DNA of 64,000 nucleotides, taken from the NCBI RefSeq assembly GCF_018141445.1, contig NZ_CP058649.1, forward strand, positions 2,375,001 to 2,439,000, written 5' to 3'. A program made the position numbers and the translations under genes. The notes below the pieces were generated by a model that worked only from the letters and a program-made list of their open reading frames with translations, had not been told where the DNA came from and made no database searches. This document shows, piece after piece, positions 28,493 through 47,629 of the stretch (position 1 is its first letter; each line of letters opens with the position of its first letter). This DNA is from Vallitalea pronyensis (lineage in GTDB: Bacteria; Bacillota; Clostridia; Lachnospirales; Vallitaleaceae).

Positions 28493-28507
28493 TGGTGAGG
28501 GAATGCA

Positions 28508-29530: not shown

Positions 29531-29653
29531 CATAAGTCATTGACCATTACAAATATCCGTTAAATTTCATAGACGATGCTTGACAGCAGTAAATGGGTGT
29601 TATTATAATAAAGGTGAAATAGACTATCTTAAATATAATGTTGGTGAATCCAT

Positions 29654-30643: not shown

Positions 30644-30683
30644 GCATGTATAGGTTAGAGCTATCCCATATATGGCGTAAAAT

Positions 30684-30727
30684 AAGGGATGACTTCTCAA
30701 CGATTATTTTGAGAGCGTCATCCCTTT
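30684..30727. terminator. Bidirectional terminator between gntR and merR genes
   Basis: AAGGGATGAC and GTCATCCCTT form the stem, with inner CTCAA/TTGAG pairing. It separates two convergent regulators. Confidence 0.85.
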
Positions 30728-30759
30728 GGTATGCTTATAGAAATAGCACCAATAAACGA

Positions 30760-31521
30760 TTATAGATTGTCGCAATAGATGCCCATTGCTTCTTTCATAA
30801 AAGCTGCAAAGCCTTCACCATGTTTGTTAAGGTTCTTGGTAAAACGTTGGTCCGTTATATACATGTCGCCTAGTCCTCGGAAAATTTCAGGCGTACATGT
30901 ATAGAAGTAATCGGTAATATATTGTCTATAAGCACCAACTGCTTCTTGAACTTCAGCATCAGCAGGTCCTTTATCCATAAGCGATACAATCTTATCAAAG
31001 ATTGCGGTATTTTTTTCTTTAATTTCTTTCCATTGCTCACTTTTATAAGAAGCGGTTTTTTTAGCACATTCTTTGTAAGCATCGCTATGCCCATACTTTT
31101 CTTCTACTTCTTTAGCATATTTTTCTTTGTGCGCTTCAATGTCACGCATATCAAATCCATCAAACATTTCTTTTGTTTTCATCGTTGTCCCTCCTTGAAC
31201 AGCTTGGATGGTTCGGTCAACTGTTTTGATAATACTTTCCAATCGCTTCTTCTTTTCAAGAAGTAACTGACGGTGCGACTTTAACGCTTTATGACGATCA
31301 AAACCTGGGTCATCCAACAGCTCTTTTATTTGATTGAGGCTAAAGTCCAGTTCCTTGAAGAATAAGACTTGCTGTAATCTTTCAAGGTCACTGTCGCTAT
31401 ATAGTCTGTAGCCGGCTGCATTTACAGACTGTGGTTTAAGAAGACCAATCTTATCATAATGATGAAGCATACGTATGGTTATACCCACCATATCTGCAAC
31501 TTCCTTAACCTTATAACGCAT
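30760..31521 (-). CDS. MerR-family regulator, TipA-type
   Basis: A 253-residue regulator. Residues 1-70 are a MerR winged helix (YKVKEVADMVGITIRMLHHYDKIGLLKP), followed by a dimerisation coiled coil (about 75-110). The C-terminal region (about 125-253), with MFDGFDMRDIEAHKEKYAKE and a helical body, is a TipAS drug-sensing domain, the type that binds thiopeptides and other amphipathic compounds. The ATG at 31521 is eight bases after GGAGG; an in-frame TTG at 31536 is not needed. No target transporter is adjacent, so it may regulate only itself or distant genes. Confidence 0.9.
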   Translation of the reverse strand: MRYKVKEVADMVGITIRMLHHYDKIGLLKPQSVNAAGYRLYSDSDLERLQQVLFFKELDFSLNQIKELLDDPGFDRHKALKSHRQLLLEKKKRLESIIKTVDRTIQAVQGGTTMKTKEMFDGFDMRDIEAHKEKYAKEVEEKYGHSDAYKECAKKTASYKSEQWKEIKEKNTAIFDKIVSLMDKGPADAEVQEAVGAYRQYITDYFYTCTPEIFRGLGDMYITDQRFTKNLNKHGEGFAAFMKEAMGIYCDNL

Positions 31522-31930
31522 TAACATCACCTCCAATACCTATTGTAAACTATGACATTATGTGAGGGTCAAGGGTTTTTTTGAAGATTTTTTTAAATGT
31601 TTGAAACATCTTTTTTATTATAAGATGAAGTGAGGTTTTTCATTCTATTATATCAAGAACAGCTGTAAAAATATATAAGATGGATGAACAATAGAAACAA
31701 GATTAATGACTAGAATTTATAGCGGACAAAATAAAATTAGAATATATATAAGCTTTAAATTGTTATTTAATCAACTATAATAAAGCAGAAATTATAAATA
31801 ATAATATTGTAATAAAAATATTAAATATAAAAATAAATTATTAATAAAACTATTAATACATAATATAAAATAAATAAATAATAAATAGTAAAATTAAAAT
31901 AAACAAATTTAATATATAAATAAATAGGTA
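31522..31930. other. Very AT-rich non-coding stretch
   Basis: About 400 bases without a gene; 31700-31930 is almost pure A/T with TAAATAA-like runs. I see no repeats with defined units and no coding signal. It ends in the promoter of the secreted orphan gene. Confidence 0.5.
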
Positions 31931-31959
31931 TTGACATATAATTTAATAAATAGTATTAT
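31931..31959 (+). promoter_or_regulatory. Strong candidate sigma-A promoter for the secreted orphan
   Basis: A perfect TTGACA and TATTAT are separated by 17 bases, 46 bases before the start codon at 32005. A TATAAT overlaps three bases further downstream. Confidence 0.65.
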
Positions 31960-32004
31960 AATTTTGTAACTATTAAAAATTTACTAATCAAAGGAGGAAA
32001 CACT

Positions 32005-32499
32005 ATGTGTAAGAAGTTAGTAGCAATCGTATTAATTTTATGTATGGCCGTAGGTTTTAATAGTACAGTATTGGCTAGTACTTGGGATCAGGAAGTATCA
32101 TCTGAAACATCAACAAAACCTACTAAATGGGATGGCACAAGATATTCAAGTAATTCTGGTTGGTCCACATTTTATGCACCAGCAGGAAAAGTTATTTTTG
32201 GTTTTGGCGAAGAAGAAAAACCTACAGGAACAGTAACACATACAATTGATCTTAAGAATTCAGCAGATGTGAAGAACCTGCCAAATAACAGTTATTTTAA
32301 AGTATATATAACGTCAATGAATGGATCTGAAAACAAGTATATCGTACAATTATCTGATTATGTACAAATTGGTTGGAATTATTATCCTACCAAAATGAAG
32401 GTTCAAGTTCATGCAAGAAGTCCAAAAGGAAGTATGTTTGAACTTCCAGGTAGAGGATGGACAGAAGTTAAAACTTGCATTACATATAGAGCATATTAA
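32005..32499 (+). CDS. Secreted protein of unknown function
   Basis: A 164-residue protein with a clear Sec signal peptide (MCKKLVAIVLILCMAVGF...VLAS, cleavage about residue 25). The mature part of about 140 residues is rich in Ser, Thr, Tyr and Trp and has a beta-rich pattern (YFKVYITSM, KYIVQLSDYVQIGW, KMKVQVHARSP); it contains one cysteine. I recognise no family. AAAGGAGG precedes the ATG and a strong promoter precedes that, so it may be well expressed. It is alone between AT-rich DNA and a terminator. Confidence 0.75.
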   Translation: MCKKLVAIVLILCMAVGFNSTVLASTWDQEVSSETSTKPTKWDGTRYSSNSGWSTFYAPAGKVIFGFGEEEKPTGTVTHTIDLKNSADVKNLPNNSYFKVYITSMNGSENKYIVQLSDYVQIGWNYYPTKMKVQVHARSPKGSMFELPGRGWTEVKTCITYRAY

Positions 32500-32541
32500 A
32501 TAAAAACTTGATATAAGTTGAATAAGTGAGTTCTATTAATA

Positions 32542-32586
32542 ATAGGGCATGATTGATTATGATAATCGATCATGCCTCTATTTTAT
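32542..32586 (+). terminator. Rho-independent terminator
   Basis: GGCATGATTGATTAT and the near-complementary ATAATCGATCATGCC form a stem followed by a T-rich run. Confidence 0.8.
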
Positions 32587-33069
32587 ATGTCTACAGCCAT
32601 ACGATTATCTAATACATGACTAAAACTTTAAGAAAGCTTTAAATAATTCTATGGTATAGTTTGTTTATAGAATTAAAAGAATATATATGGAAATACAACG
32701 GAATAATTTTATTTTGTAGTTATCCAATATTGCTATTGAACTTTTTATTTGCTATACTTATTGACAATAAGGAAGAGGAGGATTATTCATGATGATGTTT
32801 GCAATTTTTCTATAGATTCCAGTTTCATAAAGGAATTGAATGGAATGCATTAAGGTTTATTTTGTGTGTTCAAATATGAAAGAGAGCATCATCTGAGAAT
32901 AAAAATGGATACTTTGTGTAAGAAGTTAAGGCATAAGCATTACTTCTTTCTATTTGCAATATTTTAATTAAGATGATGACTATTGAAAAAGGTTTTTTTC
33001 ATGGTCTTTTTTATATGTGAAAAAAGATATAAGATTAATAAAAATTTAAATAATGGAGAGATAATCGGA
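32587..33069. other. Non-coding stretch before the ParB-like gene
   Basis: About 480 bases with no convincing gene. A good ribosome binding site (AGGAGG near 32777) precedes three consecutive ATG codons at 32789, but the frame stops after eight codons, so it may be the remnant of a decayed gene. I see no other structure. Confidence 0.45.
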
Positions 33070-33522
33070 ATGAGAAAAAATAAAAAGTTTACATTTAGTG
33101 TAGAAGAAGCCAGATGGTATGGAAGTAATCATAAAATAGAACAATGGGTACACAGCTTTTTAACAACAATAGGCAACAATCGTGGATTTTCGGATGGATT
33201 GAAGCTACAAAAACGATATTGGTTAGGTCCTGTATTATGTGATTTAAATATGTTTGGAAGATGTTGTGGTCCAGAGGATGGACTAAAATATTATGAGCCA
33301 TTATTAAATTTTGAAGAGCGGGTTAAGAAGATGCAGTTATCTATTAGAGATGGTTGGGAAGTGCCTCCCCTAATAGTGAACCACAACAAAGGCAAGTTTG
33401 AACTTAATGATGGTAATCATAGGTATGAAGCTCTAAGGAGATTGGATATTCACATGTATTGGGTTATATTTTGGGATAGTGACAATCATTTACATACACT
33501 AAAAGAGAGGATTAAAAGATGA
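33070..33522 (+). CDS. ParB/sulfiredoxin-fold domain protein
   Basis: A 150-residue protein. The C-terminal part holds IRDGWEVPPLIVNHNKGKFELNDGNHRYEALRRL, with the DGNHRYEA motif of the ParB N-terminal (CTPase/nuclease-like) domain. No ParB helix-turn-helix follows, so this is not a chromosome-partition ParB. The ATG at 33070 follows a weak GGAGAG; an in-frame ATG 29 codons upstream would add an unlikely extension. Its stop overlaps the next start (ATGA), so it is translationally coupled to the phosphotransferase-like gene and the two products probably act together on a small molecule or nucleotide. No named function. Confidence 0.78.
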   Translation: MRKNKKFTFSVEEARWYGSNHKIEQWVHSFLTTIGNNRGFSDGLKLQKRYWLGPVLCDLNMFGRCCGPEDGLKYYEPLLNFEERVKKMQLSIRDGWEVPPLIVNHNKGKFELNDGNHRYEALRRLDIHMYWVIFWDSDNHLHTLKERIKR

Positions 33523-34424
33523 GTCACACGATTGAGCACAATGATAAAATATTGGAGTTATTACAGAAGGTATTTGATAATCATATAACAGAGTATATCC
33601 CTGTTGTAGGCGGCAATATAAAAAATGTATATTTTTTTAGGCATAGAAATAAGGATTATGTCCTTAGCGTATTTACTGAACATACAAACAATATGCATAA
33701 TAAGTATTTAAACAGACGATTAATCCAAAATAATATAGGTGTAAAGCAACTTATTAGTAGTGGTTATGATGAAGGGTGTTACTATGAGATACATACCAAA
33801 CTCGTAGGTGACCCTTATAGGAGAAATGACAATTTAAACAGGTTAATTCCTCAGTTATTTAGAAATCTTGTTACCATTCATCGTGTTGATGTAAGTGATT
33901 CTACTGGTTACGGATGGATTAAGCACAATGGCCAAGGGACATATCCATCGTTTAATGCTTTTTTAGAAGGTTTTTTTCAAGAGGTTCAGAATGGCTTCTG
34001 GGAAAACTGGTATGACTTATTCATGGGGGATATGCTCAATAAAGACATATTTTATGGATTTTATGATAGAATGATGATGTTATCTAAGTTCTGTGAAGGA
34101 AAGCGATATCTGGTTCATGGGGATTTTCATTTAGGTAATGTCATAGGTATTCATGGTAAAATAACAGGTATTATTGATTGGGATAATGCATTATATGGTG
34201 ACTATGTATATGATATTTCCACCTTACAAATGACATTACCCAATTATCCTATATATGATATGTTTCACTCTAATTATGTAGACAGCAAGATAGATACGCA
34301 TTGTTTTCTAGAACGTTTCACTTGTTTAAGTATTTTAAGAGGTTTAGATGCTTTAAGGTTTTATGCCAAGAAAAATAAGAAATGTGCTTATGAGTCCGTT
34401 ATTAGATATCTAAAACTTCTCTAA
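33519..34424 (+). CDS. Aminoglycoside phosphotransferase-family kinase
   Basis: A 301-residue protein of the APH/choline kinase fold. The catalytic loop is LVHGDFHLGNV (HGDxxxxN, about residue 200) and the metal-binding aspartate follows in GIIDWDNALYGD. The N-terminal nucleotide-binding lobe is weakly conserved (YVLSVFTE). The family includes antibiotic, homoserine and sugar kinases, so resistance cannot be assumed. It overlaps the ParB-like gene by four bases and ends before a terminator. Confidence 0.85.
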   Translation: MSHTIEHNDKILELLQKVFDNHITEYIPVVGGNIKNVYFFRHRNKDYVLSVFTEHTNNMHNKYLNRRLIQNNIGVKQLISSGYDEGCYYEIHTKLVGDPYRRNDNLNRLIPQLFRNLVTIHRVDVSDSTGYGWIKHNGQGTYPSFNAFLEGFFQEVQNGFWENWYDLFMGDMLNKDIFYGFYDRMMMLSKFCEGKRYLVHGDFHLGNVIGIHGKITGIIDWDNALYGDYVYDISTLQMTLPNYPIYDMFHSNYVDSKIDTHCFLERFTCLSILRGLDALRFYAKKNKKCAYESVIRYLKLL

Positions 34425-34463
34425 AAGGTATTATTTTTATTATAATAATGTTTTTAAATGATG

Positions 34464-34503
34464 AAAAGCAGTGGAATGACTATGGTGTCACTTCACTGCT
34501 TTG
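34464..34503 (+). terminator. Rho-independent terminator
   Basis: AAAGCAGTG pairs with CACTGCTTT around a loop that can itself pair GAC/GTC. Confidence 0.8.
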
Positions 34504-34620
34504 CATTAATTATAGAGTTTAACAAGGTTACAACAACCGAAGAAAAAAATAAAAACTACCATAATCAGAATATCTCACCTACATCTGGAAAAAATACCTC
34601 TATAAGCCTATTAATTATAT

Positions 34621-34826
34621 AAATTGGACTAATCCAATTTATTGTATACAATTCTAAAATTGAACCCATAACCTCAAATTAGAGGATAACGGGCTTTAAG
34701 ATATATTGAAAACTCACTAATACCATTATGCCTGTAGATATGTGGATGGGTATGATATAATGCGTGAATAATTGTATACAATCACTAAAATTTCAGGGTA
34801 AATATTCTTTGAAAATTGTATATAAT
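34621..34826. promoter_or_regulatory. Cluster of palindromic operator-like sites before the glutamate mutase operon
   Basis: The 12-bp palindrome ATTGTATACAAT occurs perfectly at 34641-34652 and 34771-34782 and with one change (ATTGTATATAAT) at 34815-34826. Directly upstream of the first copy, AAATTGGA and TCCAATTT (34621-34640) form another perfect inverted repeat. A possible promoter TTGGAC-N16-TATACA overlaps the first copy. Three near-identical palindromes within 190 bases suggest binding of a dimeric regulator, plausibly GntR-like, controlling glmS onwards. The sites are seen directly; the regulator is unknown. Confidence 0.6.
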
Positions 34827-34971
34827 ATATAAGAAAGCTATTGACATATTGGATCATTCATTATATATTAATGGCATAGTCCAATGTAATATTTTGGTTT
34901 CAATCGTGACTAAAACAATAAGGGATTTTATAATCCATTTAAATCTCTTGAAGAGTAACCGGAGGTCAAAA

Positions 34972-35391
34972 ATGAATGGTAAAAAAATAGTCTTAGGTGT
35001 TATAGGGGCAGATGTACATGCTATAGGTAATAAAATACTAGCTTATGCCTTTGAAGAAGCAGGTTTTAAAGTGATCAATCTAGGTGTTATGGTAGCTCAG
35101 GAGGAATTTATTAAGGCAGCTATTGAAACAGGTGCTGATGCTATTTTGGTATCCTCATTATATGGTCATGGCGAGTTGGATTGTCGTGGTCTTCGAGAAA
35201 AATGTGAAGAATCAGGTATTGGTGACATTCTATTATACGTAGGTGGTAACTTAGTTGTTGGTAAAGCAGACTTTGAAGATGTCAAGGCAAAGTTTTTGGA
35301 GATGGGCTTTAATAAAGTATATCCTCCAGGAACACTTCCAGATGTTGCAATTTCCGACTTGAACGAGGATTTAGGAGTGAGTGATGAATGA
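34972..35391 (+). CDS. glmS: Glutamate mutase sigma (B12-binding) subunit
   Basis: A 139-residue cobalamin-binding protein, close to the usual 137 residues. The DxHxxG motif [11 protein letters not shown] supplies the histidine that coordinates cobalt in base-off B12; [17 protein letters not shown] and [10 protein letters not shown] complete the fold. With GlmE it isomerises (S)-glutamate to (2S,3S)-3-methylaspartate. The ATG at 34972 follows GGAGG; a 52-codon in-frame extension upstream is non-homologous and rejected. Its stop overlaps the glmL start (ATGA). First gene of the methylaspartate operon. Confidence 0.96.
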
Positions 35392-36779
35392 AGGTAGTGC
35401 TCCTCATTGATTTTGGTAGTACATATACCAAAGTAACAGCTGTGGATTTTGATGAAGAAGTGATTATAGGTTCGGCTAGAGCATTTACAACCATTGAGAC
35501 GGATATAAATGATGGGCTTGAAGGGGCCATTGCTCAGTTAAAGAAAAAATATGGTCATATGGACATACATGAAATGTTTGCTTGCAGCAGTGCTGCTGGT
35601 GGGCTTCGTATGATTGCTATTGGTCTTGTACCTGATTTGACTGCAGAAGCTGCCAAGCGAGCAGCACTTAGTGCAGGTGCTAAGGTGATGAACGTTTTTT
35701 CTTATGAACTGAATGAGCAAGAGAGAAAAGAAATTGATGCACTGAAACCAGACATTATTCTGTTAACAGGTGGGACAGATGGTGGAAATAAAGATGTTAT
35801 TCTACATAACGCCAAAGTTGTTGCAGAGCTTCAGTCCAATGCTCCTGTTATTGTAGCTGGCAACAAATCCGTACAAGAACAAGTGATGGACATACTAAAA
35901 GAGAAAGAGGTAACCTTATGTGAGAATGTAATGCCTGAGCTAGATGTACTGAATATTACATCAGCTAGATTAGCCATCCGAGATGTGTTTTTAAGAAAAA
36001 TTGTCTATGCAAAAGGTTTATCCCGTGTGCAAGAGCTCATTCAAGGCATACTTATGCCAACACCTTCAGCCGTACTTAAGGCTGCAAAAACCTTAAGCCT
36101 TGGAACTAAGAACCAGAAGGGGTGGGGCGATCTCATTGTGGTGGATGTGGGTGGTGCTACAACGGACATACATTCTATAGCAGAGGGACTGCCAAGCAAA
36201 GGTGGGGTCTTGTTAAAAGGTCTGCAAGAGCCTTTGGTAAAACGTACTGTTGAGGGTGATCTAGGTGTTCGGTACAGTGCACATGCACTTATAGAAACCT
36301 GTGGTATACAGGACATGGAGAAGATAACCGGTTTATCCAAAGAACGAATCATTACTTATCTGGATAAAATCAAACATAATCCAGAGTATTATTCCGATGA
36401 AGATGACGATTTTAAGACCTTTGATTTTGGTCTTGCATCGCTAGCCGTAAGAGATGCTGTACACCGACATGTAGGGCGGTTAGAAACCCACTATACACCT
36501 TTTGGTGCCACATACCTTCAAACAGGCAAGGACCTTACAGAACTTCGAAAAATAATTGGAACAGGTGGTTCCATTATACATTGTGATTGCATTCAAAAAG
36601 TACTTGAACAGGCTCTTTTTGATCCCACTGACCCAACAGTACTTCGACCCATGCAAAGTGATTATTATATTGATCATAAATATATTTTAGCAGCTATGGG
36701 ATTACTAGCTGAACATTATCCCGATAAAGCATTAAATATCATGAAGAAAGAAATAAAACTAATTTCTAGAGGTGAATAA
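35388..36779 (+). CDS. glmL: Glutamate mutase-associated reactivating ATPase GlmL/MutL
   Basis: A 463-residue protein of the GlmL family, an ASKHA-fold ATPase thought to reactivate B12-inactivated glutamate mutase. The phosphate loop [15 protein letters not shown] opens the protein; the second, [14 protein letters not shown], is near residue 250. GTGGSIIH near residue 390 is the adenosine motif. It overlaps glmS by four bases and is followed at once by glmE; the order S-L-E is the classical one of clostridial glutamate fermenters. Confidence 0.95.
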
Positions 36780-36780
36780 A

Positions 36781-38232
36781 ATGGAATTGAAGAATAAAAA
36801 GTTAGAGGATGAACTTTTTAACAGCATCAGACAGGACGTATTATTACAGTGGTCAACAGGCAACGATGTGGATTTTGATGAAGCAGTGGCTTATCATAAA
36901 GAAATTCCTAAGCATAAGGTTTTTTCGGATAAACTGATAGAAGCCAAAGAACAAGGTAACACATTGATTCAACCCCGGGCAGGTGTTGCACTGGTGGATA
37001 AACATATTGAGCTTTTGAACTACTTGGTGAATGAAGGCGAAGCAGACCTTCTTCCAACAACCATTGATAGTTATACAAGGCACAACCGATACCATGAAGC
37101 AGAAGAAGGTATTAATGAAAGCCGAAAAGCAGGTCGCTCTTTATTGAATGGTTTTCCAGCCGTTAATCATGGTATATCTTTATGCCGAAAAGTAAATGAA
37201 TCCGTCAATGTACCGGTACAAGTAAGACACGGTACACCCGATGCAAGATTACTGACAGAAGTGACCATTGCAGGAGGCTTTACATCCTATGAAGGTGGCG
37301 GTATCTCTTATAATATTCCCTATTCAAAGAATATACCTCTAGACAAAACCATCTATGACTGGCAGTATGTGGACCGTTTGATAGGTAAGTACGAGGAAGC
37401 GGGCATCACCATTAACCGTGAGCCTTTTGGACCATTAACAGGGACCCTTGTGCCGCCTTGTATCTCCCATAGTGTAGCCATTATTGAAAGTCTTCTTGCA
37501 GCCGAGCAGGGTGTAAAAAATATAACAGTGGGTTATGGACAATGTGGTAACCTGATTCAAGATATAGCAGCTATTCGTACGCTAGAAAGTCTTACGGAAG
37601 AGTATCTTCATAAGTTTGGTTATGAAGACGTTGTGGTAACAACCGTTCTTCATCAATGGATGGGTGGTTTCCCACAAGATGAATCCAAGGCATTTGGCGT
37701 GATTTCATGGGGAGCAGCTACGGCGGCATTAGCTGGTGCCACAAAGGTGATTGTCAAAACACCTCATGAAGCCATGGGTGTGCCAACAAAAGAAGCCAAT
37801 GCCAGTGGGATTAAAGCAACAAAACAATTAGTGACCATGTTACGTGACCAGCAGATGGTATCTATCAGTGACTTAAAACTTGAAAAAGACATGATTATGG
37901 CAGAGACACGTTGTATCGTAGATAAAACCCTTGAATTGGGAGATGGTGATTTAGCTGAAGGTACCATTCGGGCTTTTCAAGCAGGTGTTATTGATATTCC
38001 ATTTGCACCTAGCCGACAGAATGCAGGTAAAGTGTTCCCTGCTCGTGATAACACAGGAGCGGTACGTTTCCTAGAATGCGCGCATTTACCTTTTACACAA
38101 GACATTAAATCTTATCATCATGATAAGATGAAAGAACGGGCAGACTATGAAAAAAGGGATATGAGCTTTCAGATGGTGATTGATGATATCTATGCGATTG
38201 GGAAAGGTAAGTTAGTGGGACGACCAAGATAA
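36781..38232 (+). CDS. glmE: Glutamate mutase epsilon (catalytic) subunit
   Basis: A 483-residue protein, exactly the usual GlmE length. Hallmarks are [30 protein letters not shown] and TAGG-like [13 protein letters not shown], which build the TIM barrel that binds glutamate and covers the B12 of GlmS. The ATG at 36781 follows AGAGGTG at the end of glmL; an in-frame GTG at 36772 overlaps that site. It makes 3-methylaspartate from glutamate, the first step of the methylaspartate route of fermentation. Confidence 0.96.
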
Positions 38233-38273
38233 AAAATACAATCACTTATGGTACAAGAGAAAGGGAATAAAAT

Positions 38274-39530
38274 ATGAAAATAGTTGATGTCATCCTATCA
38301 AAAGGTAAAACAGGTTTTTTCTTCGATGACCAAAGAGCCATTAAAAAACATGCTGTTCCAAACGGGGCATCTTATAGCGGTATGCCCATTACACAAGGCT
38401 TTGAATCCATTCGACAGGCAGGAGAGGCTATTTCAGTTATGCTGTTATTAGAAGATGGGCAGATTGCCCATGGGGATTGTGCTGCCGTTCAATATTCAGG
38501 AGCAGGAGGAAGAGACCCGTTATTTCTTGCAAAAGATTACATACCGATTATCGAAAAGTACTTAAAACCAATCCTGATTGGGAAAGAGCTCCATTCTTTT
38601 CGTGACTTAGCAGAAGAGATTGACCACTATGTGATGCCAACAACAGGTAAGCCATTGCACACTGCCATTCGTTACGGTATGACACAGGCTATCTTGGACG
38701 GGGTAGCTAAGAGTAAAAAAAGACTCATGGCAGAAGTGGTTGCAGAAGAATATGGGACAGCGATGACAAAAGAAGAAATCCCTATATTCATGCAATCAGG
38801 TGATGACCGTTATAATAATGTGGATAAAATGATTTTAAAAGAAGCGGATGTGTTACCCCATGGTTTGATTAACAACGTGGAGTTAAAACTTGGAAAAGAA
38901 GGGGAACTCCTTAAGAAATATATTGCTTGGCTTCGAGATCGTGTGGGTGAAATTAGTCAAGATGCTGTTTATCAACCCATCTTGCATTTAGATGTCTATG
39001 GGACCATTGGTATGATTTTTGATTACGATATGGATAGAATGGTCGCTTATATGAAAGAATTAGAAGAGGCAGCGTATCCATTAAAGCTACGTATTGAAGG
39101 ACCTATGGACATGGAAGAGCGGACAGCTCAGATGGAAGCATTAAGAGAGATGTGCCAGCGTCTCGATGCTCAAAACATACAAGTGGAAATTGTAGCTGAC
39201 GAATGGTGTAATACCTTTGATGATATAAAATATTTTGCTGATAATGGAGCAGGCCATATGATTCAGATTAAAACACCGGATCTAGGGGGCATCAATAATA
39301 CCATAGAAGCTGTACTCTATTGTAACAAAAAAGGTATTGGCGCATACCAAGGCGGTACGTGTAACGAGACAGACCGTTCTTCACAAGTCTGTGTTCACTT
39401 GGCTATGGCAACGAAACCTGTACAGATTCTAGCGAAACCAGGCATGGGTGTTGACGAAGGTTATATGATTGTGTTTAATGAAATGCAGCGCATCTTAGCT
39501 GTACGTAAAATGAGAGAAAGGATAGAATAG
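38274..39530 (+). CDS. mal: Methylaspartate ammonia-lyase
   Basis: A 418-residue enolase-superfamily enzyme that removes ammonia from 3-methylaspartate to give mesaconate. The start MKIVDVILSKGKTGFFFDDQ, the block GDCAAVQYSGAGGRDPLF and PILHLDVYG (catalytic His) and VQIKTPDLGG-like MIQIKTPDLGG (catalytic Lys) are diagnostic; metal ligands lie in ADEWCNT and neighbours. The clostridial enzyme is about 413 residues. It follows glmE by about 40 bases and ends one base before the AtuA-family gene, so all belong to one operon. Confidence 0.95.
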   Translation: MKIVDVILSKGKTGFFFDDQRAIKKHAVPNGASYSGMPITQGFESIRQAGEAISVMLLLEDGQIAHGDCAAVQYSGAGGRDPLFLAKDYIPIIEKYLKPILIGKELHSFRDLAEEIDHYVMPTTGKPLHTAIRYGMTQAILDGVAKSKKRLMAEVVAEEYGTAMTKEEIPIFMQSGDDRYNNVDKMILKEADVLPHGLINNVELKLGKEGELLKKYIAWLRDRVGEISQDAVYQPILHLDVYGTIGMIFDYDMDRMVAYMKELEEAAYPLKLRIEGPMDMEERTAQMEALREMCQRLDAQNIQVEIVADEWCNTFDDIKYFADNGAGHMIQIKTPDLGGINNTIEAVLYCNKKGIGAYQGGTCNETDRSSQVCVHLAMATKPVQILAKPGMGVDEGYMIVFNEMQRILAVRKMRERIE

Positions 39531-39531
39531 G

Positions 39532-40896
39532 ATGAAAGAATTAAGAGTGTTATCCCCAACGGCCATATTGGGATACGGATTTCCTATGGCATCTTTTGAA
39601 GAAGGCATGAAGCGAAAACCCCATGTCATCGCAGTGGATGCAGGGTCAACGGACCCTGGACCTTATTATCTAGGTGCAGGCATATCGTTTACAGATGCCA
39701 CAGCAGTAAAACGTGATCTATCCATCATGATTGAAGCAGCTATGAAAGAAGACATTCCTGTGATTATCGGAACGGCAGGCGGGGCAGGCGGTGAGCCTCA
39801 TTTACAAGAAGTTGTTGACATCATTAAGGCTATTGCTGCTGAAAAAAAGTTAACGTTTAAAATGGCTGTCATCCATGCTGAGATTGATAAAGAGATGGTA
39901 GCTAAGAAATTGGCAGATGGTAAAGTAAGTCCTCTTCACCCAGCACCTGAATTAACAGAAGGCGAGCTAGAGGAAACAGAGAGAATCGTTGGGCAAATGG
40001 GGCTTGAACCCATAATCAAAGCCCTTGATGAGGGAGCTCAAGTCATTGTTGCTGGTCGTGCCTATGATCCTACTGTATTTGCAGCATTAGCTGTAAAAGA
40101 GGGTTATGATACAGGTTTAGCACTCCATATGGGTAAGATTTTAGAATGTGCCAGTATAGCGGCTACGCCTGGTAGCGGCAGTGATTGTATGTTTGGTTAT
40201 TTAGGTGATGATTATTTCAAGCTGGAACCCTTAAGTCCCATTCGAAAATGTACCACATTATCTGTAGCCGCCCATACGTTATATGAAAAAACCAATCCTT
40301 ATGTATTACCAGGACCAGGCGGTGTCATTGATTTACATGATGCAAAATTTGAACAAGAAACAGACAGCATGGTAAAAGTGACAGGTTCCAAATTTATCCC
40401 TTCGGATGCCTACACCATTAAATTAGAAGGGGCTAAGAAAGTGGGCTATCGCACGGTATCCATTGCAGGCACAAGAGACAGCATCATGATCGGGCAGATT
40501 GATGCTATTGTAGAAGAAGTGAAAGAACGTGTAAAAGATAATTTTTCAGATGCTGATTTTGACTACTATCTGGACTTCAAAATATATGGTAAAAATGCAG
40601 TTATGGGTTCTTTAGAGCCAATGAACGAGATTACAAGTCATGAGATTGGTATTGTGATTGAAGCTGTAGCCGATACCCAACAGATTGCTAACACCATCTG
40701 CAGCTTTGCCAGGTCTACTATGTTGCATTATGGGTACAATGGACGTATATCCACAGCAGGTAATCTTGCATTTCCTTATTCTCCATCGGATTTTAAAGCA
40801 GGTGAAGTATACGCATTCAGCTTATATCATGTGGTTGAAGTGGACCCTTATGAATTGTTCCCTATTGATTATATGACAGTTGGGGAGGCATTATAA
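39532..40896 (+). CDS. AtuA / DUF1446 family protein
   Basis: A 454-residue protein of the DUF1446 (AtuA, acyclic terpene utilisation) family, recognised from VDAGSTDPGPYYLG near the start, IGTAGGAGGEPHL, and VAGRAYDPTVFAALA. Its activity is not established. It starts one base after the mal stop with AAAGGA upstream and is followed directly (no gap) by the DUF4387 gene. In other bacteria AtuA-like and DUF4387 genes also travel together. Here they occupy the place where the next pathway enzyme, mesaconate hydratase, would be expected, which is absent from the window. Confidence 0.88.
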   Translation: MKELRVLSPTAILGYGFPMASFEEGMKRKPHVIAVDAGSTDPGPYYLGAGISFTDATAVKRDLSIMIEAAMKEDIPVIIGTAGGAGGEPHLQEVVDIIKAIAAEKKLTFKMAVIHAEIDKEMVAKKLADGKVSPLHPAPELTEGELEETERIVGQMGLEPIIKALDEGAQVIVAGRAYDPTVFAALAVKEGYDTGLALHMGKILECASIAATPGSGSDCMFGYLGDDYFKLEPLSPIRKCTTLSVAAHTLYEKTNPYVLPGPGGVIDLHDAKFEQETDSMVKVTGSKFIPSDAYTIKLEGAKKVGYRTVSIAGTRDSIMIGQIDAIVEEVKERVKDNFSDADFDYYLDFKIYGKNAVMGSLEPMNEITSHEIGIVIEAVADTQQIANTICSFARSTMLHYGYNGRISTAGNLAFPYSPSDFKAGEVYAFSLYHVVEVDPYELFPIDYMTVGEAL

Positions 40897-41214
40897 ATGA
40901 AGAGAAGATTAAAAGACATTGCAGAAGTCATCCGAAGTAAAAATGCAGGTCCCTATGAACTAACCTTTGATATTATATTCAAGGATTGGGAGCTTTTTGA
41001 GACAGCATGTAAGCATCATATCATTAATAAGCAAGTTATTGCATCCCTCTATGATATCCCTATAACAGATGTCATCAACATCATTGAATTTAAACCTGCA
41101 AAAGCCATCAAAGCTACGATTGTAAGACCAATGGCATCCGGTCAATTAGGAGAAACAGATGTTTACGGTGCGCAACAACATGCACCATTAGTGGATTTAG
41201 AAGTGCCATTTTAA
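40897..41214 (+). CDS. DUF4387 family protein
   Basis: A 105-residue protein with the DUF4387 features LKDIAEVIRSKNAGPYELTFDI and IVRPMASGQLGETDVYGAQQHAPLV. It starts at the base after the AtuA stop codon, so the two are probably made in equal amounts and may form a complex, with this protein like a small second subunit. Function unknown. It is the last gene of the methylaspartate operon, before a terminator. Confidence 0.88.
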   Translation: MKRRLKDIAEVIRSKNAGPYELTFDIIFKDWELFETACKHHIINKQVIASLYDIPITDVINIIEFKPAKAIKATIVRPMASGQLGETDVYGAQQHAPLVDLEVPF

Positions 41215-41225
41215 AGGAATAGCCA

Positions 41226-41267
41226 AGGGAATTTTATCACGGGATAGCTGATAGAATTCTCTTTTTT
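41226..41267 (+). terminator. Rho-independent terminator after the methylaspartate operon
   Basis: AGGGAATTTTATCA can pair with TGATAGAATTCTCT, allowing G-U pairs, and is followed by six T residues. Confidence 0.82.
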
Positions 41268-41374
41268 ACTTATTAGAAAGTCCTTGAATGTAACATATGA
41301 AATAGCTAATCAACTTTTAAAGGGGATATTTTTTTGATATAATAACCCTATAATAAAAAGTAGGAGACAAGCAG

Positions 41375-42172
41375 ATGATTCCAAAAGTCCAAAAAAGAAG
41401 AGCAGAGATTAAGAATATTGTTAACATAGAAGGTAAGGCTTATGGCAATGAACTCTCAAAGATGTTTGGTGTAACCACTGAGACCATTCGTGCTGATTTA
41501 GATTTTATTGGTATGCAGGAAGGTTATATACGTATACATGGTGGTATCACCAAAGAAGAAACAGAACATTTCAATATGCAGTATAAATACCACGAACGCC
41601 AGACCAATTATGTTGAGGCTAAGAAGAAAATATGTTACCATACCATGGATCTGATTGAAGATAATGACTGCATTTATGTGGATACAGGTTCAACGGTTAC
41701 TTTTTTACTTCATTATATTAATCGGAGAAGAAACATCACCCTTGTAACACCTTCTATCGCTTTATTGATGAAATATGTCACTGAGAATTATGCGCAAGTG
41801 TTTCTAAATCAAGGACATACCTTCATCTTCATAGGGGGTGAGGTGGATGCCAACATATTAACAACCTATGGTACATTCTTTCATCAAACAGTAGAGGATT
41901 TTAACTTTGATAAAATGATTTTTTCTGTAGATGGCATTGATTATAAAAAAGGATGTACAGACGTGGATTACGCTTCTTATGCGATGATAAAGTCCGTGAG
42001 TAAAAAGGCCAACAAGAAGATTGCCATCATGGATAAAAGTAAATTTGGACGGGTTGCAACCCACCATGTTATTGGCTGGGACAGCATAGATTACTTGGTT
42101 ACAGACTATGCATTGGACCACAAATGGAAATCCCTATTAAAGCAAAAAAACATCACCTATAAGCAGATGTAA
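41375..42172 (+). CDS. DeoR-family transcriptional regulator
   Basis: A 265-residue regulator. The N-terminal helix-turn-helix is KVQKRRAEIKNIVNIEG...LSKMFGVTTETIRADLDFI, followed by the DeoR ligand domain with YVDTGSTVTFLL (sugar-phosphate binding) and FSVDGIDYKKGCTDVD. DeoR proteins usually repress sugar operons and respond to a phosphorylated sugar. The ABC importer cluster starting at 42306 lies directly downstream on the same strand, making it the likely target. GTAGGAG precedes the ATG. Confidence 0.9.
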   Translation: MIPKVQKRRAEIKNIVNIEGKAYGNELSKMFGVTTETIRADLDFIGMQEGYIRIHGGITKEETEHFNMQYKYHERQTNYVEAKKKICYHTMDLIEDNDCIYVDTGSTVTFLLHYINRRRNITLVTPSIALLMKYVTENYAQVFLNQGHTFIFIGGEVDANILTTYGTFFHQTVEDFNFDKMIFSVDGIDYKKGCTDVDYASYAMIKSVSKKANKKIAIMDKSKFGRVATHHVIGWDSIDYLVTDYALDHKWKSLLKQKNITYKQM

Positions 42173-42179
42173 AATTTGG

Positions 42180-42300
42180 CATTTATAACATAAAACAAAA
42201 TTATTTGCTATAAAAACAAAATATTAACCAAATATTAACGAGCTCTTTACTTGAGCTTTATTTTTTTTTGCTTTTTTTATGCTATTATGATTTTGAAAGG
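42180..42300 (+). promoter_or_regulatory. Leader with repeated AAACAAAAT motif and terminator-like hairpin
   Basis: ATAAAACAAAATTATT (42190-42205) and ATAAAAACAAAATATT (42210-42225) are spaced two helical turns apart, followed by a shorter AACCAAATATT (42226-42236). Such direct repeats fit a DeoR operator. AGCTC/GAGCT (about 42240-42256) with a T-run follows and could be the deoR terminator. No unambiguous -35/-10 pair was found for the downstream ABC cluster. Confidence 0.4.
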
Positions 42301-42305
42301 AGGGA

Positions 42306-43184
42306 ATGGTGAAAGTGAGTAAGAAACATACGATTAGATTACTGTTTGTTTTACCTTTTTTAATACCCTTGTTTTTGTTTTGGATTATTCCGCTATGCTT
42401 AGCATTTGCCATTAGTTTCACCGATTGGGATTATTTATCGGCAGATATTCATTTTGTTGGACTATACAATTATGTGGATATCTTTACAGATAGTGACTTT
42501 ATGAAAGCGTTAATCAATACCTTGGTGTTTGGTCTTGGAACTATTGTATCAACCATTGCACTAGGTCTGCTCTTTGCTTTTATTTTTCAAAAAAATTTCA
42601 AGGGTCATCGCATCTATCAGATGATTATCTTTAGCCCTTGGGTTACCCCTGCTGTTGCCGTATCTTTGGTATGGTCTTGGATCTATGAACCGGAGAGGGG
42701 ATTTGCTAACTTTATCCTTGGATTGTTTGGTTTACAGCCATTGGAATGGCTTCATAGCTCAGATACAGCTATGTTGAGTATCATTATTTTTACCATATGG
42801 AAGTCCATTGGTTGGACCATGTTATTTTATATTGGTGCTTTGGAACGAGTTCCTAGAAGTACATACGAAGCAGCTGAGATAGATGGTGCTAATGATATAA
42901 GCAAATTTATCCATGTCACAGTTCCTCTTATATCACCCACTACTTATTTTTTATTTATTATTAATTTAATCTCATCCATACAAGTATACGACCAAATACA
43001 GATTATGACACAAGGTGGCCCAGGAGGCAGTACAACCACCTTACTTTACTTGTATTATAAAAAGGCTTTTCAAAACTTCCAGATGGGTTCTGCAAATGCT
43101 GTAGCAATGGTCATACTGGCTATCATTATTCTATTGTCACTACTAAGTACTTATGTCAGTAAGAAATGGGTGCATTATGAATAG
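42306..43184 (+). CDS. Sugar ABC transporter permease (UgpA/MalF-like)
   Basis: A 292-residue permease with about six membrane segments and the EAA loop YEAAEIDGANDISKFIHVTVPLI near residue 195, which docks the ATPase. It belongs to the carbohydrate uptake transporter 1 group. The ATG at 42306 is very close to the GGAGGG site; GTG codons at 42309 or 42315 may be the real start, which would not change the product greatly. First gene of the cluster permease-permease-binding lipoprotein-PHP-HAD; no ATPase gene is included. Confidence 0.9.
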   Translation: MVKVSKKHTIRLLFVLPFLIPLFLFWIIPLCLAFAISFTDWDYLSADIHFVGLYNYVDIFTDSDFMKALINTLVFGLGTIVSTIALGLLFAFIFQKNFKGHRIYQMIIFSPWVTPAVAVSLVWSWIYEPERGFANFILGLFGLQPLEWLHSSDTAMLSIIIFTIWKSIGWTMLFYIGALERVPRSTYEAAEIDGANDISKFIHVTVPLISPTTYFLFIINLISSIQVYDQIQIMTQGGPGGSTTTLLYLYYKKAFQNFQMGSANAVAMVILAIIILLSLLSTYVSKKWVHYE

Positions 43185-43203
43185 AAAAGAAGGGATGTTA
43201 AAC

Positions 43204-44034
43204 ATGAAAAAAATGAGATTGACCATCAAGCATATTTTCCTCATTAGTATAGCCATTATCTTTGCATTTCCTTTTGTATGGATGGTCTTTGGTGTCTTTA
43301 AAACCAACAACGAGATTTGGCAGGAACCTTATAAGTTATTGCCTAGTCACTGGGACATTGCAAAAGTGGTTGAAAGTCTTGGACAGATCAATTTTAATGG
43401 CTACATGTTGAACAGCTTTTATGTGGGTATATTCGGTACCTTATCGATACTGATTGTTGCGCTGTTGTTTACCTATGTGGTTGTTTTTCTTAAAAATAAA
43501 AATACCAACTTCTTGTTTGTATTAGTGCTTGCCACCTATATGCTGCCAAGTGCAGTTACCTATGTACCATCTTATGTGATTCTTGCAAAAATGGATTTGC
43601 TAAACAAGCTAAATGGTATGATATTTTCATGTTTAGCCAGTGTTTTCGCAGTATTTTATCTGCGACAATCCTTTCTTAAGATGAGCTATGATTTTGTGGA
43701 AGCTGCAAGAATTGATGGGGCCAACGATTTTAAAATTATCTATCATGTGATTTTTCCAATGAACAAGTCAGCCTTCTATACAGTAGGTGTGTTGACATTT
43801 GTACAACTCTATAACAGTTATATGTGGCCAAGTATCATGATTAATGACGATAAAAAATTCTTGGTTTCCCAAGGTTTGCGCCAATTCTTTATTCAAGACG
43901 GAGCATATGGTATGAATTGGTCGGAGGTTATGCTGGCCAGTACATTAACCCTACTGCCAGTCATTCTGATCTTCATTATTGGACAGAAATGGTTTGTAAC
44001 AGGGATTGTACAAGATAGTGGTATAAAAGGTTAA
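43204..44034 (+). CDS. Sugar ABC transporter permease (UgpE/MalG-like)
   Basis: A 276-residue permease with about six membrane segments and the EAA loop VEAARIDGANDFKIIYHVIFPM near residue 175. It pairs with the permease encoded just before it. I chose the ATG at 43204, nine bases after AAGGG; in-frame ATG codons at 43177 and 43195 are worse placed. The first hydrophobic segment starts at HIFLISIAII. The start lies shortly after the preceding stop, consistent with one operon. Confidence 0.9.
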   Translation: MKKMRLTIKHIFLISIAIIFAFPFVWMVFGVFKTNNEIWQEPYKLLPSHWDIAKVVESLGQINFNGYMLNSFYVGIFGTLSILIVALLFTYVVVFLKNKNTNFLFVLVLATYMLPSAVTYVPSYVILAKMDLLNKLNGMIFSCLASVFAVFYLRQSFLKMSYDFVEAARIDGANDFKIIYHVIFPMNKSAFYTVGVLTFVQLYNSYMWPSIMINDDKKFLVSQGLRQFFIQDGAYGMNWSEVMLASTLTLLPVILIFIIGQKWFVTGIVQDSGIKG

Positions 44035-44074
44035 ATCATTCAACATAACAATGACATGAAATGGAGGATTAGAA

Positions 44075-45454
44075 ATGAAAAAAATATGGAGTTTATTAGT
44101 CGTTATTGCTTTATTGGTAGGCTGTTCCAGTACACCAAGTTCAGAAACAAAGGTACCTGCTGACTCAGATGCTCTAACAAAAGCAGAGCAAGGAACAGAT
44201 AAAAAAGACAACACAAAAGAAACGGTGGTTGTGGAACTGTGGCATGCATTAGGAGGTTCTCTTGGTGATGGTTTATTACAGATTATTGATACCTATAATC
44301 AATCACAAGATACCTACCAAGTGAAGCCAGTGACCATTGGCAGCTATAGTGAAATTGATGAGAAATTACAAGCAGCCTATGTGGCAAAAACAGTGCCCGC
44401 ATTAGTAGCTGGAGGTTCTTATGATACATTTTATAAGAAAGGATTAGTGGAGAGCTTTGAAGACTATATGCCAGAAGACTACGATAAAAGTGATATTGTT
44501 GGCGGATTTATGGATGCAGCTCTAAGAGATGGCAAGATGGTCTTTGCACCTGCTTACGGTACATCTCAGGTATTATACTATAATAAAGCTGTTTTACAAG
44601 AAGCAGGGTACGATAAAGAAGACATGAAATCTTGGCAAGACATCGTGGCTATGTCAGACAAGGTGATGGGCATGGATACCAATAAGGATCAGATTAAGCA
44701 CATATGGGAGCCCATGTGGGGTTCAGGTAATATGGCAGATGTTGTGTCAAGTGCAGGTGGACATTTTATATCCGATGATGGACAAACCGTTACAATTAAC
44801 GACGCCATCTGGGTAGAAGTACTTGAACAATATAGGAAGTGGATTCATGAAGACAAAGTCATGCGTATTCATTCTGGTGGACAAGGCTGGGAATATTGGT
44901 ACAAAACCATGGATGATTGGGTATATGGTAAATCTTTGGGTTATACAGGATCACCAGGGGACTATGTCATAGCTCTTGAAGCCGTAGGAAAGGCAATTGA
45001 TGAAGGGTACAAAAATGAGTTTGGTGTGACACACCAAGCAGGATGGAAAGGCAACGATCCAGCACCATACTTCTCAAGCCTTATGTATTTCATTCCAAAA
45101 AGTGATAAGTTAACAGAAGAACAAAAGAAAGGTGCGGCAGAATTTGTGACCTTTGCCACAAACACCAACAACACAGCTATGTTCTCCATGGCAACAGGTT
45201 ATGCAGCTGTTCGAAAATCAGTACTTGATTTACCAGAGTATCAAGCCTACCTTTCATCTAATCCAGATGCTGATGCAGCTCTCAAGCAGATTGACTTATA
45301 TGCTGTACCGGAATTTGTTGATCCCACAGGTGGCGCAATAATGGATGCTCTGTCCGAAGCCGTTGATAAGATACAGATTGAAAATATATCAGCAAAGAAA
45401 GCTTTAGATGAAGCGGCTAAAAAAGCACAGAGGGCATTAGATAAAGTTAAGTAA
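44075..45454 (+). CDS. Sugar ABC transporter substrate-binding lipoprotein (UgpB-like)
   Basis: A 459-residue extracytoplasmic binding protein. The lipobox LVGC ends the 17-residue signal, followed by a polar Ser/Thr/Lys linker. VVELWHALGGSLGDGLLQIIDTYNQ is the typical opening of the family that includes UgpB and maltose-type binding proteins, and GVTHQAGWKGNDPAPYFSSL is a late family segment. It delivers substrate to the two permeases before it. The PHP and HAD phosphatases that follow suggest a phosphorylated or phosphodiester ligand, such as a glycerophospho compound, but this is inference. Confidence 0.9.
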   Translation: MKKIWSLLVVIALLVGCSSTPSSETKVPADSDALTKAEQGTDKKDNTKETVVVELWHALGGSLGDGLLQIIDTYNQSQDTYQVKPVTIGSYSEIDEKLQAAYVAKTVPALVAGGSYDTFYKKGLVESFEDYMPEDYDKSDIVGGFMDAALRDGKMVFAPAYGTSQVLYYNKAVLQEAGYDKEDMKSWQDIVAMSDKVMGMDTNKDQIKHIWEPMWGSGNMADVVSSAGGHFISDDGQTVTINDAIWVEVLEQYRKWIHEDKVMRIHSGGQGWEYWYKTMDDWVYGKSLGYTGSPGDYVIALEAVGKAIDEGYKNEFGVTHQAGWKGNDPAPYFSSLMYFIPKSDKLTEEQKKGAAEFVTFATNTNNTAMFSMATGYAAVRKSVLDLPEYQAYLSSNPDADAALKQIDLYAVPEFVDPTGGAIMDALSEAVDKIQIENISAKKALDEAAKKAQRALDKVK

Positions 45455-45468
45455 ACGAGGTAGATAAT

Positions 45469-46938
45469 ATGGATAATAAAGGATATACCCAATCACTTGA
45501 AAAACGTCTTCATCATGGTATGGAAGTCTTTCATATGGATATAGCTGACCCCATCCATTCACTGTCATTGGCATGTGAAACAACCATAAAAGCACCCATT
45601 AGGGTATGGCTGTATAATCCGACTGGTATATTTATCGGAGAAGTGAGTATGGGATATAGTCATTTTATTCCCTATGTCTATATATCCCGTGTAAAAGCGA
45701 CTATGAACGGCTTAGCCCATGACCTTATTGGCGGTAGCTATAAGGTGGTTATCTTCACCTACGAAGAGGAAGCAGCATTTGTAAAAGATGAGCTTATGGT
45801 CCGTTTTAACATAACCGTCAATGAAGATAAGGCCATTGATAAGGCATATCTTCAAGAAGAAGCATGGTATGGTGAAAACGGTGTGCGATTAGATTTTGAT
45901 CACTGTATCAAGGATGAAGCCAAGTATTATAAAGGCGATTTCCACGGACATAGTATATATTCGGATGGTAAAAACCAACCATCACAAGTGGCAAAAATTG
46001 TGCGGCAGCAAGGACTTGATTTTATAGCTCTAACAGAACATAACACCATTCCTTTTGGTTACAAGAAACTGGGCTGTTTACCTATTCCATCCTTTGAATT
46101 GACATTGGATATGGGGCATATGAACATACATGGTGTCCATCGATTAGCCTTTCCAGAACTTGTGCAATCCAGTCAAAATCCATATGATTTATTGCATCAA
46201 ACACTGGAAACTTATACCCCTACCGCAAATATTTCAATGAACCATATGTTTCTAGAACCTTGGCACTTTCAAGATGGTGATTTTGATATGCGGCGTATTC
46301 ATACCCTTGAAATCATCTGTGACCCAACCTATCCCACTTCTCCAGAAGCCAATGATAAAGCTGCTAGGTTCTTGGACTTTTTATGGGAAGCTGGTTTTAA
46401 AATCTATGGCATTGGGGGAAGTGATAGTCATAACCTGTACGAAGAACGTTATGAAGGTGCTTCTTTACCATCTGTCTATGGTGACCCTGCTACGTATGTT
46501 CATTGTCATGGGTTATCCATTAACCATGTCATTGATGGCATAAAACATGGTCATTGCTACGTGGCAAGATTTGTACAATTGGATATAAATATTATGCATG
46601 AAACGTATTTACCAGGGCAGCAAATAGGTGATGATGTACGTGAACTGACTTATCAAATAAAGGTCAAAAATTGTTGTAGCACGTATAGGGGGCGATTCAT
46701 TTGTAACGGCAGAGTCATAAAACAGCAAATGATCTCCAAAAAAAATTCAACCATGAAGCTGACCATCATCTTATCTGAAGACCCCTTTTGGCTACGATTT
46801 GGATTATACGATGAAGATGGACATGTTATTGCTTATGTGAACCCTATTTATAACAAGTTAAATGAAATAGCCGAAACAAAGTTAAGTCAATTACTAGAAA
46901 AGTTTGGTGAACAATATGATAAAAGGTATATTATTTGA
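45469..46938 (+). CDS. PHP-domain metallohydrolase (CehA/McbA-like)
   Basis: A 489-residue protein. The first 150 residues form a beta-rich domain. A PHP metal-dependent phosphoesterase domain follows, with GDFHGHSIYSDGKN (about residue 158), IALTEHNT and the later GSDSHNLYE, giving the clustered histidine and aspartate ligands of a trinuclear metal centre. Such CehA/McbA-type enzymes cleave phosphate or carbamate esters. There is no signal peptide. It overlaps the next gene by 23 bases and follows the binding-protein gene by 14, so it is part of the same operon. Confidence 0.87.
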   Translation: MDNKGYTQSLEKRLHHGMEVFHMDIADPIHSLSLACETTIKAPIRVWLYNPTGIFIGEVSMGYSHFIPYVYISRVKATMNGLAHDLIGGSYKVVIFTYEEEAAFVKDELMVRFNITVNEDKAIDKAYLQEEAWYGENGVRLDFDHCIKDEAKYYKGDFHGHSIYSDGKNQPSQVAKIVRQQGLDFIALTEHNTIPFGYKKLGCLPIPSFELTLDMGHMNIHGVHRLAFPELVQSSQNPYDLLHQTLETYTPTANISMNHMFLEPWHFQDGDFDMRRIHTLEIICDPTYPTSPEANDKAARFLDFLWEAGFKIYGIGGSDSHNLYEERYEGASLPSVYGDPATYVHCHGLSINHVIDGIKHGHCYVARFVQLDINIMHETYLPGQQIGDDVRELTYQIKVKNCCSTYRGRFICNGRVIKQQMISKKNSTMKLTIILSEDPFWLRFGLYDEDGHVIAYVNPIYNKLNEIAETKLSQLLEKFGEQYDKRYII

Positions 46939-47629
46939 CAAAGATGGTACGCTCATTGAATTTATGGTCATGTGGCATCAGGTGATGACCTATATATTTG
47001 ATGAACTGGAACATGTGTTTCATATGGACAATGATACACTTACAGCGTTAAAGCATCTTTCTGGCTATGGTCCAGAAGGGTTTCAAAAAGAAAGCATGAT
47101 CCAATATGTATCAACCACAGACATCATCCGTCAATGGTATCAGGTCATGACCAATGATTCACAACCAGCGTCTATTACAAGAAAACAACTGATGAAACTA
47201 TTTGAAAAGCATGCTGTAAGAAAAGATATTCCAATTCAAGTTCTTGAAGGGGTCGAACGTTTATTACAGGATTTGAAAAGTGAAGGTTATTATCTTGGTA
47301 TCGCCACTGCTGATACCTTAGAATCGGCAGAGTATAGTTTGAAAAAAGCAGGCATATATGATTACTTTCATTATATAGGTGCTGATGATGGTCAATATGA
47401 AGCAAAGCCATCACCTCAGATGGCACATGCGTTCTGTCAGCAGATGGCTATATCTCCAGAAGCCTTATTAATCGTTGGTGATAGTGTGACGGATATGATG
47501 TTTGCTCAGAATTCAGGTGCACATTTTATTGGTTTGGAAACACCCTATAACGATTCCAATCAATTTATACATAACCAGTATCCTACTGTTGATAAGATCT
47601 ATAAAATTATGGATCGTCTTAAATACTAG
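46916..47629 (+). CDS. HAD-superfamily phosphatase (phosphoglycolate phosphatase-like)
   Basis: A 237-residue HAD hydrolase with a helical cap. Motif I is LFDKDGTL (residue 6), motif II GIATADTLESAE and motif IV LIVGDSVTDMMFAQNSG. It resembles the phosphoglycolate phosphatase/beta-phosphoglucomutase group. The ATG at 46916 lies inside the end of the PHP gene, a coupling that suggests the two phosphatases act on successive products of the imported compound. An in-frame TTG four codons earlier is less likely. Confidence 0.88.
   Translation: MIKGILFDKDGTLIEFMVMWHQVMTYIFDELEHVFHMDNDTLTALKHLSGYGPEGFQKESMIQYVSTTDIIRQWYQVMTNDSQPASITRKQLMKLFEKHAVRKDIPIQVLEGVERLLQDLKSEGYYLGIATADTLESAEYSLKKAGIYDYFHYIGADDGQYEAKPSPQMAHAFCQQMAISPEALLIVGDSVTDMMFAQNSGAHFIGLETPYNDSNQFIHNQYPTVDKIYKIMDRLKY

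Follow-up and report, generated by a model that had tools for sequence, protein, structure and literature searches.

A two-subunit citramalate lyase very probably encoded by the AtuA/DUF4387 gene pair of a Vallitalea pronyensis glutamate mutase operon

Two genes annotated merely by family, as AtuA/DUF1446 and DUF4387, directly follow the genes of glutamate mutase and methylaspartate ammonia-lyase in a 64,000-nucleotide stretch of the Vallitalea pronyensis genome (contig NZ_CP058649.1, positions 2,375,001 to 2,439,000; hereafter the window), raising the question of which pathway step they supply. The initial annotation had proposed that the pair stands in for the mesaconase expected at this place or, more broadly, takes part in mesaconate or citramalate metabolism. 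Here, we report that the pair belongs to a known and recently solved kind of enzyme and is most likely not a substitute mesaconase; the two "unknown" genes are likely to close the last gap in a fermentation pathway. The operon comprises the following genes:

34972-35391, forward strand: mutS (glmS), glutamate mutase B12-binding subunit (NCBIfam NF002612, 223 bits, cut-off 110, scanned from 34966)
35388-36779, forward strand: mutL (glmL), glutamate mutase accessory protein (NF040745, 650 bits, cut-off 475)
36772-38232, forward strand: mutE (glmE), glutamate mutase catalytic subunit (TIGR01503, 787 bits, cut-off 390)
38274-39530, forward strand: mal, methylaspartate ammonia-lyase (TIGR01502, 579 bits, cut-off 286)
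39532-40896, forward strand: cmlA-like gene, annotated AtuA/DUF1446, 454 residues (PF07287; homology to 9ERQ_A; predicted fold)
40897-41214, forward strand: cmlB-like gene, annotated DUF4387, 105 residues (PF14330; homology to 9ERQ_B; predicted fold)

The first gene, mutS, starts at an ATG read from the sequence behind a GGAGGT site, and the products of mutS, glmL, mutE and mal all passed NCBIfam equivalog cut-offs, with Pfam scores in the operon of 582 bits for MutL, 770 for MutE, 395 for MAAL_C and 235 for MAAL_N. The larger protein of the pair is a member of the AtuA superfamily (PF07287, 80 bits, cut-off 22.8) and the smaller one matches DUF4387 (PF14330, 135 bits, cut-off 27). The tight spacing described initially was confirmed, with a single base between mal and the AtuA-type gene, whose stop codon directly abuts the ATG of the DUF4387 gene, and so was the lack of a class I fumarase among the operon genes. 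Searches for RNA families (Rfam, window positions 28000-43000) gave nothing at gathering score, and within 34400-41500 neither promoter-like sites (24 vs 24.4 in shuffles) nor terminator-like sites (4 vs 4.6) exceeded shuffled sequences; the best promoter-like site, with an 11/12 match, lies upstream of mutS at 34841-34869. Downstream of the cmlB-like gene, the same strand carries a DeoR-type regulator and then, as judged by eye, a sugar-type ABC-like transporter. This region (41375-47629), which also encodes a CehA/McbA-type metallohydrolase and, again by eye, a HAD-like protein, resembles a catabolic operon of its own.

Against solved structures, each protein had a single significant match, and both matches led to entries 9ERQ and 9EVF, whose chains A and B the depositors name as the subunits A (cmlA) and B (cmlB) of a citramalate lyase. 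The AtuA-type protein aligned with 9ERQ_A over residues 4-439 of 454 (E 9.6e-158) and the DUF4387 protein with 9ERQ_B over its entire length (residues 1-105 of 105, E 5.9e-26), while the next matches were at chance level (E 0.58 and 1.1). The predicted folds are likewise similar. AlphaFold models were computed without templates from an alignment of 72 rows for CmlA (A1, including the window sequence and excluding loci L045, L055, L072, L077, L081, L084, L086, L087 and L090) and one of 37 rows for CmlB (A2), and reached mean pLDDT values of 89.0 and 91.2, respectively. The CmlA model superimposed on 9evf_A with a Z-score of 49.6 (rmsd 2.3, 450 aligned residues; next row Z 8.8), and the CmlB model on 9evf_B with a Z-score of 16.4 (rmsd 2.1, 104 aligned residues; next row Z 7.4), in agreement with Foldseek; the other structures matching the CmlA model do so largely over residues 304-427, with Z-scores of at most 8.8. 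No paper on the 9ERQ/9EVF enzyme was found in the literature searched, where most subscription journals fall outside coverage and which such a paper may well have escaped, and PMC12290011 was not informative on it, so that the name of lyase rests on the depositors' label. We infer, at a probability of about 0.9, that the two window proteins together form a citramalate lyase, CmlAB, of the 9ERQ/9EVF kind. The suggested role in citramalate metabolism is thus well supported, both proteins being homologous to a solved citramalate lyase and sharing its folds.

In the pathway that we propose, the window operon would probably convert glutamate into mesaconate, a class I fumarase encoded outside the operon would hydrate mesaconate to (S)-citramalate, and CmlAB, taking the role of the citrate-lyase-type complex CitDEF, would split the latter into acetate and pyruvate. 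Judging from excerpts of two studies (PMC4682846, PMC8473912) and from the loci surveyed here, CitDEF of clostridial glm operons resembles the window pair in operon place and in proposed reaction. It belongs to different families, and the window pair has no detectable homology to CitF, CitE or CitD, AtuA and DUF4387 being the only families under an E-value of 0.1. The genome of V. pronyensis (6.3 Mb, 2 contigs, 99% complete) is consistent with this scheme. It contains no match to CitF, in a search that was positive in 3 of 14 control genomes. The initial annotation had held that a mesaconase encoded elsewhere and co-regulated would count against its proposal, and the first half of this was found: a single class I fumarase alpha gene lies at C1:396060-396857 with its beta gene adjoining, its alpha subunit sharing 52-63% identity with 42 main-type alpha subunits from the fetched loci, and 28-35% with another 14. 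This distant fumarase would be the mesaconase of the pathway. Furthermore, in the available portion of a genome report on Vallitalea guaymasensis (PMC6163223), citramalate lyase is the sole missing step of the pathway, for which its authors considered that an enzyme not yet described might exist; the window pair would fit this gap.

To place the pair in a broader context, we turned to the AtuA-type protein's 328 relatives and examined the loci of the best 80 (60-86% identity). In these 80 loci, cmlB adjoins cmlA in 78 and mutE or mal lies within the fetched flank in 63, so the linkage is not due to chance. A class I fumarase alpha gene was present on the same strand in 31 of the 80 loci and on either strand in 39, and in 24 of the 80 the pair is accompanied both by glm genes and by a class I fumarase on the same strand, some as an unbroken mutS-mutL-mutE-mal-cmlA-cmlB-fumA-fumB series (e.g. 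L025, L030, L065 and L073). These counts are lower bounds, since contig ends shorten many flanks. The fetched flank lacks mutE and mal in the remaining 17/80 loci, some of them on short contigs. Among such glm-less loci, a TRAP-type transporter precedes the pair in L026 (open reading frames, by eye) and a DctM gene occurs in L039; Pfam annotation of sampled neighbours in L013, L022, L042, L044, L056 and L076 was mixed and offered no common clue to a substrate. One Desulfovibrio locus (L033:4976-6358) displays mutS-mutL-mutE-mal-cmlA with no cmlB found adjoining, and a Neorhizobium plasmid (L118:6983-10192) carries cmlAB with a fumarate hydratase gene directly behind it; the cluster includes a P450, and its listed genes comprise none of the glm type.

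In a tree of 80 sequences, the nearest to the window CmlA were one Desulfoluna and three Vallitalea sequences, the latter being its nearest glm-linked relatives. Rows linked and unlinked to glm genes are interleaved, with 12 label changes where three groups need at least 2, and the pair is therefore not tied to glm operons. The closest neighbour of all, at 85% identity, is a Desulfoluna pair from another phylum (L013:9001-10679) with no glm genes within 9 kb, which suggests lateral transfer. Conserved residues were then compared between a 75-member CmlA set and five other AtuA proteins. Twenty-five polar positions proved specific to CmlA, each with conservation of at least 97% in its set and with its residue retained in no more than one of the five others (e.g. 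H90, R238, K253 and R405); the window protein has all 25 and E. coli CmlA has 23. Another 21 positions conserved at the same level are common to all five other AtuA proteins (e.g. D41, R176, D179, E205, C206 and K297). The AtuA-wide positions may have a part in the chemistry or in binding a nucleotide, and the CmlA-specific ones in binding the substrate.

These residues bear on the possibility that the window pair has drifted towards another substrate of the AtuA family, either a different tertiary hydroxy acid or some CoA ester, in an operon that would not ferment glutamate to acetate and pyruvate. More distant AtuA/DUF4387 pairs, at 34-43% identity, do adjoin tripartite tricarboxylate transporter genes with no glm genes in the stretch seen, and two genomes hold second pairs with about 37% identity to CmlA of the window (L115:8240-10042 in G383 and L116:8241-10028 in G022), on contigs other than those bearing mutE, the L116 pair adjoining a DctM-like gene (by eye), again with no glm genes in the stretch seen. 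These second pairs probably act on another substrate. The window pair, however, groups with the glm-linked set apart from the 34-43% pairs, on a branch whose support is only 83/49, and keeps the CmlA-specific residues, which makes such a drift very improbable.

The mesaconase reading is best confronted with the homologous operon of E. coli O157:H7, whose order is mutS-mutL-mutE-mal-cmlA-cmlB-transport protein-fumarase (ECs_0757)-cobalamin adenosyltransferase. The chains of 9ERQ match its pair ECs_0760/ECs_0759 with E-values of 1.3e-291 and 5.2e-57, and this pair, which also follows mal, is 56% (CmlA) and 44% (CmlB) identical to the window proteins; the window operon differs by lacking the mesaconase gene and the transporter. 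ECs0757 is FumD, a demonstrated mesaconase, in the work of Kronen and Berg (PMC4682846), who, in the part of their paper available to us, left open the fate of citramalate and gave the function of the DUF1446 gene downstream of mal as unknown. That the pair coexists with a demonstrated mesaconase in one operon is a strong argument against assigning the mesaconase function to the pair. In the Sakai annotation (L117:31934-33618), ECs_0759 (cmlB) is labelled acyl-CoA synthetase and ECs_0760 (cmlA) 3-methylaspartate ammonia-lyase, both apparently wrongly.

The initial annotation had also called for a survey of glm operons for mutual exclusion between the pair and fumarase. We conducted it on 100 genomes with a full-length or strong mutE match, 22 from 391 genomes of the window's class and 78 from 398 of its phylum, each searched for DUF4387, CitF and the class I fumarase alpha domain. 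The class set yielded 23 matches, 22 of them kept after removal of G199 (partial mutE, E 9.1e-5); the phylum set yielded 119 matches in 398 genomes, from which those with a best mutE match below 390 bits were dropped, leaving 78 and G000, the latter counted once, in the class set. Also excluded were a DUF4387 match of 27 bits in G529, phylum-set citF matches below 500 bits, and, in the class set, two citF fragments in G339 and a citF match of 18 bits in G030. Within 12 kb of mutE, cmlB (DUF4387) was found in 54 of the 100 genomes and citF in 17, and the two never occurred together there (0 observed vs 9.2 expected, Fisher p 2.6e-7 uncorrected for kinship); the true weight of this exclusion is lower, as relatedness is uncorrected and families tend to be uniform. 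Exclusion was thus observed between cmlB and citF, and not between cmlB and fumarase: among the 54 cmlB operons, 20 have a fumarase alpha gene no further than 12 kb from mutE, as do 13 of the 17 citF operons. Neither cmlB nor citF was near mutE in 29 genomes, in at least one case owing to a contig break (G120, split into L096 and L097). At the scale of whole genomes, 62 of the 100 contain DUF4387 only, 20 CitF only, 8 both and 10 neither. The exclusion is not absolute, given these eight genomes and the cit genes found with cmlAB in 3 of the 80 named loci, all from Prevotella (L060, L067 and L080), where cmlAB lies in the glm operon and the cit genes within the flank. An operon of the CitF type is illustrated by G030 (mutS-mutL-mutE-mal-fumA-fumB-citD-citE-citF-citC), its cit genes named from order and sequence, with citF in agreement with the CitF profile match. 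With cmlB and citF excluding each other and fumarase lying either in or out of the operon, CmlAB most likely replaces the citramalate lyase.

In the window's own class (22 mutE genomes), citF is absent from all 7 cmlB operons and fumarase from 6 of them (the exception being G022), when all 13 citF operons have a fumarase near mutE. This renders the mesaconase guess reasonable as far as close relatives go, and could also suggest a single enzyme performing both steps, from mesaconate to acetate and pyruvate. Such a dual role is nevertheless extremely improbable, as the pair and a fumarase stand together in a number of operons and a class I fumarase persists in 66 of the 70 DUF4387 genomes, with no match in the other 4. 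A new type of mesaconase, hydrating mesaconate where classical glm operons rely on a class I fumarase, deserves as little credence and was rejected: the solved homologue is a citramalate lyase, the pair shares operons with FumD and with other class I fumarases, and class I fumarase/mesaconase (FumD or the two-subunit form), which catalyses the adjacent step, matches neither window protein, the Fumerase domains (PF05681 and its C-terminal partner) being unlisted for the pair at E-values up to 10, a range in which HMMER filters drop most matches above about 0.1.

If CmlAB is the citramalate lyase, its chemistry probably departs from that of the classical enzyme, which cuts citramalate via an acetyl thioester on a prosthetic group. 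The title of 9EVF, "Citramalate lyase - ADP - pyruvate complex" (released 2025-10-08), gives ADP and pyruvate as its ligands, and since the solved complex holds both, CmlAB probably uses a nucleotide. The ADP raises the question of how, without CoA, the enzyme can break a carbon-carbon bond adjacent to a free carboxylate. Perhaps the carboxylate of the CH2-COO- arm is phosphorylated, after which the C-C bond would break without CoA or a prosthetic-group thioester; judging from the chemistry and one structure title, this route would yield acetyl phosphate and pyruvate. The clostridial pathway is credited, in excerpts of PMC8473912, with about 4.75 ATP per 5 glutamate. At this yield unrecovered ATP would be costly, which makes acetyl phosphate release or another use of the nucleotide likelier than plain hydrolysis. 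Acetate kinase family matches are present in the V. pronyensis genome, compatible with acetyl phosphate release, though not specific to it.

Extending this scheme, we put forward the tentative and rather doubtful generalisation that CmlAB and the AtuA/DUF4387 superfamily are nucleotide-dependent, CoA-free lyases, in which the CH2-COO- arm of a tertiary hydroxy acid would be phosphorylated and released as acetyl phosphate or as acetate and Pi. If so, acetyl phosphate would pass straight to acetate kinase in glutamate fermenters and the ATP would be recovered, CmlAB would be the CoA-less counterpart of ATP-citrate lyase, and AtuA would act likewise on a terpene-derived substrate. AtuA itself, of the same Pfam family as CmlA, has also been proposed to release acetate, from a different substrate, an assignment given as tentative in the text available (PMC4847356); the Thauera AtuA protein is 615 residues long vs 454 for the window CmlA, and a review, seen in excerpt, assigns the acetate-lyase step to LiuE instead (PMC4097962).

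The pair may moreover be widespread and overlooked: as cmlB is more frequent than citF beside mutE (54 vs 17 of 100), no model of NCBIfam matched the window pair or that of E. coli, and the Pfam name of the smaller protein is still DUF4387, many genomes may carry this step unrecognised. Two further observations concern its context in other bacteria. In an iron-response table for Prevotella intermedia, drawn from the accessible part of PMC10434189, methylaspartate ammonia-lyase and the adjoining AtuA-annotated genes (PIOMA14_II_0010 to 0012) shift together, 2.2-2.5 fold, and a fumarate hydratase gene has the opposite sign (-3.4). Finally, one locus of G022 (L113) combines, on one contig, cmlAB, two fumarase-type pairs and a divergent mutE (39%) in whose vicinity no mal was detected, and perhaps represents a variant of the pathway.
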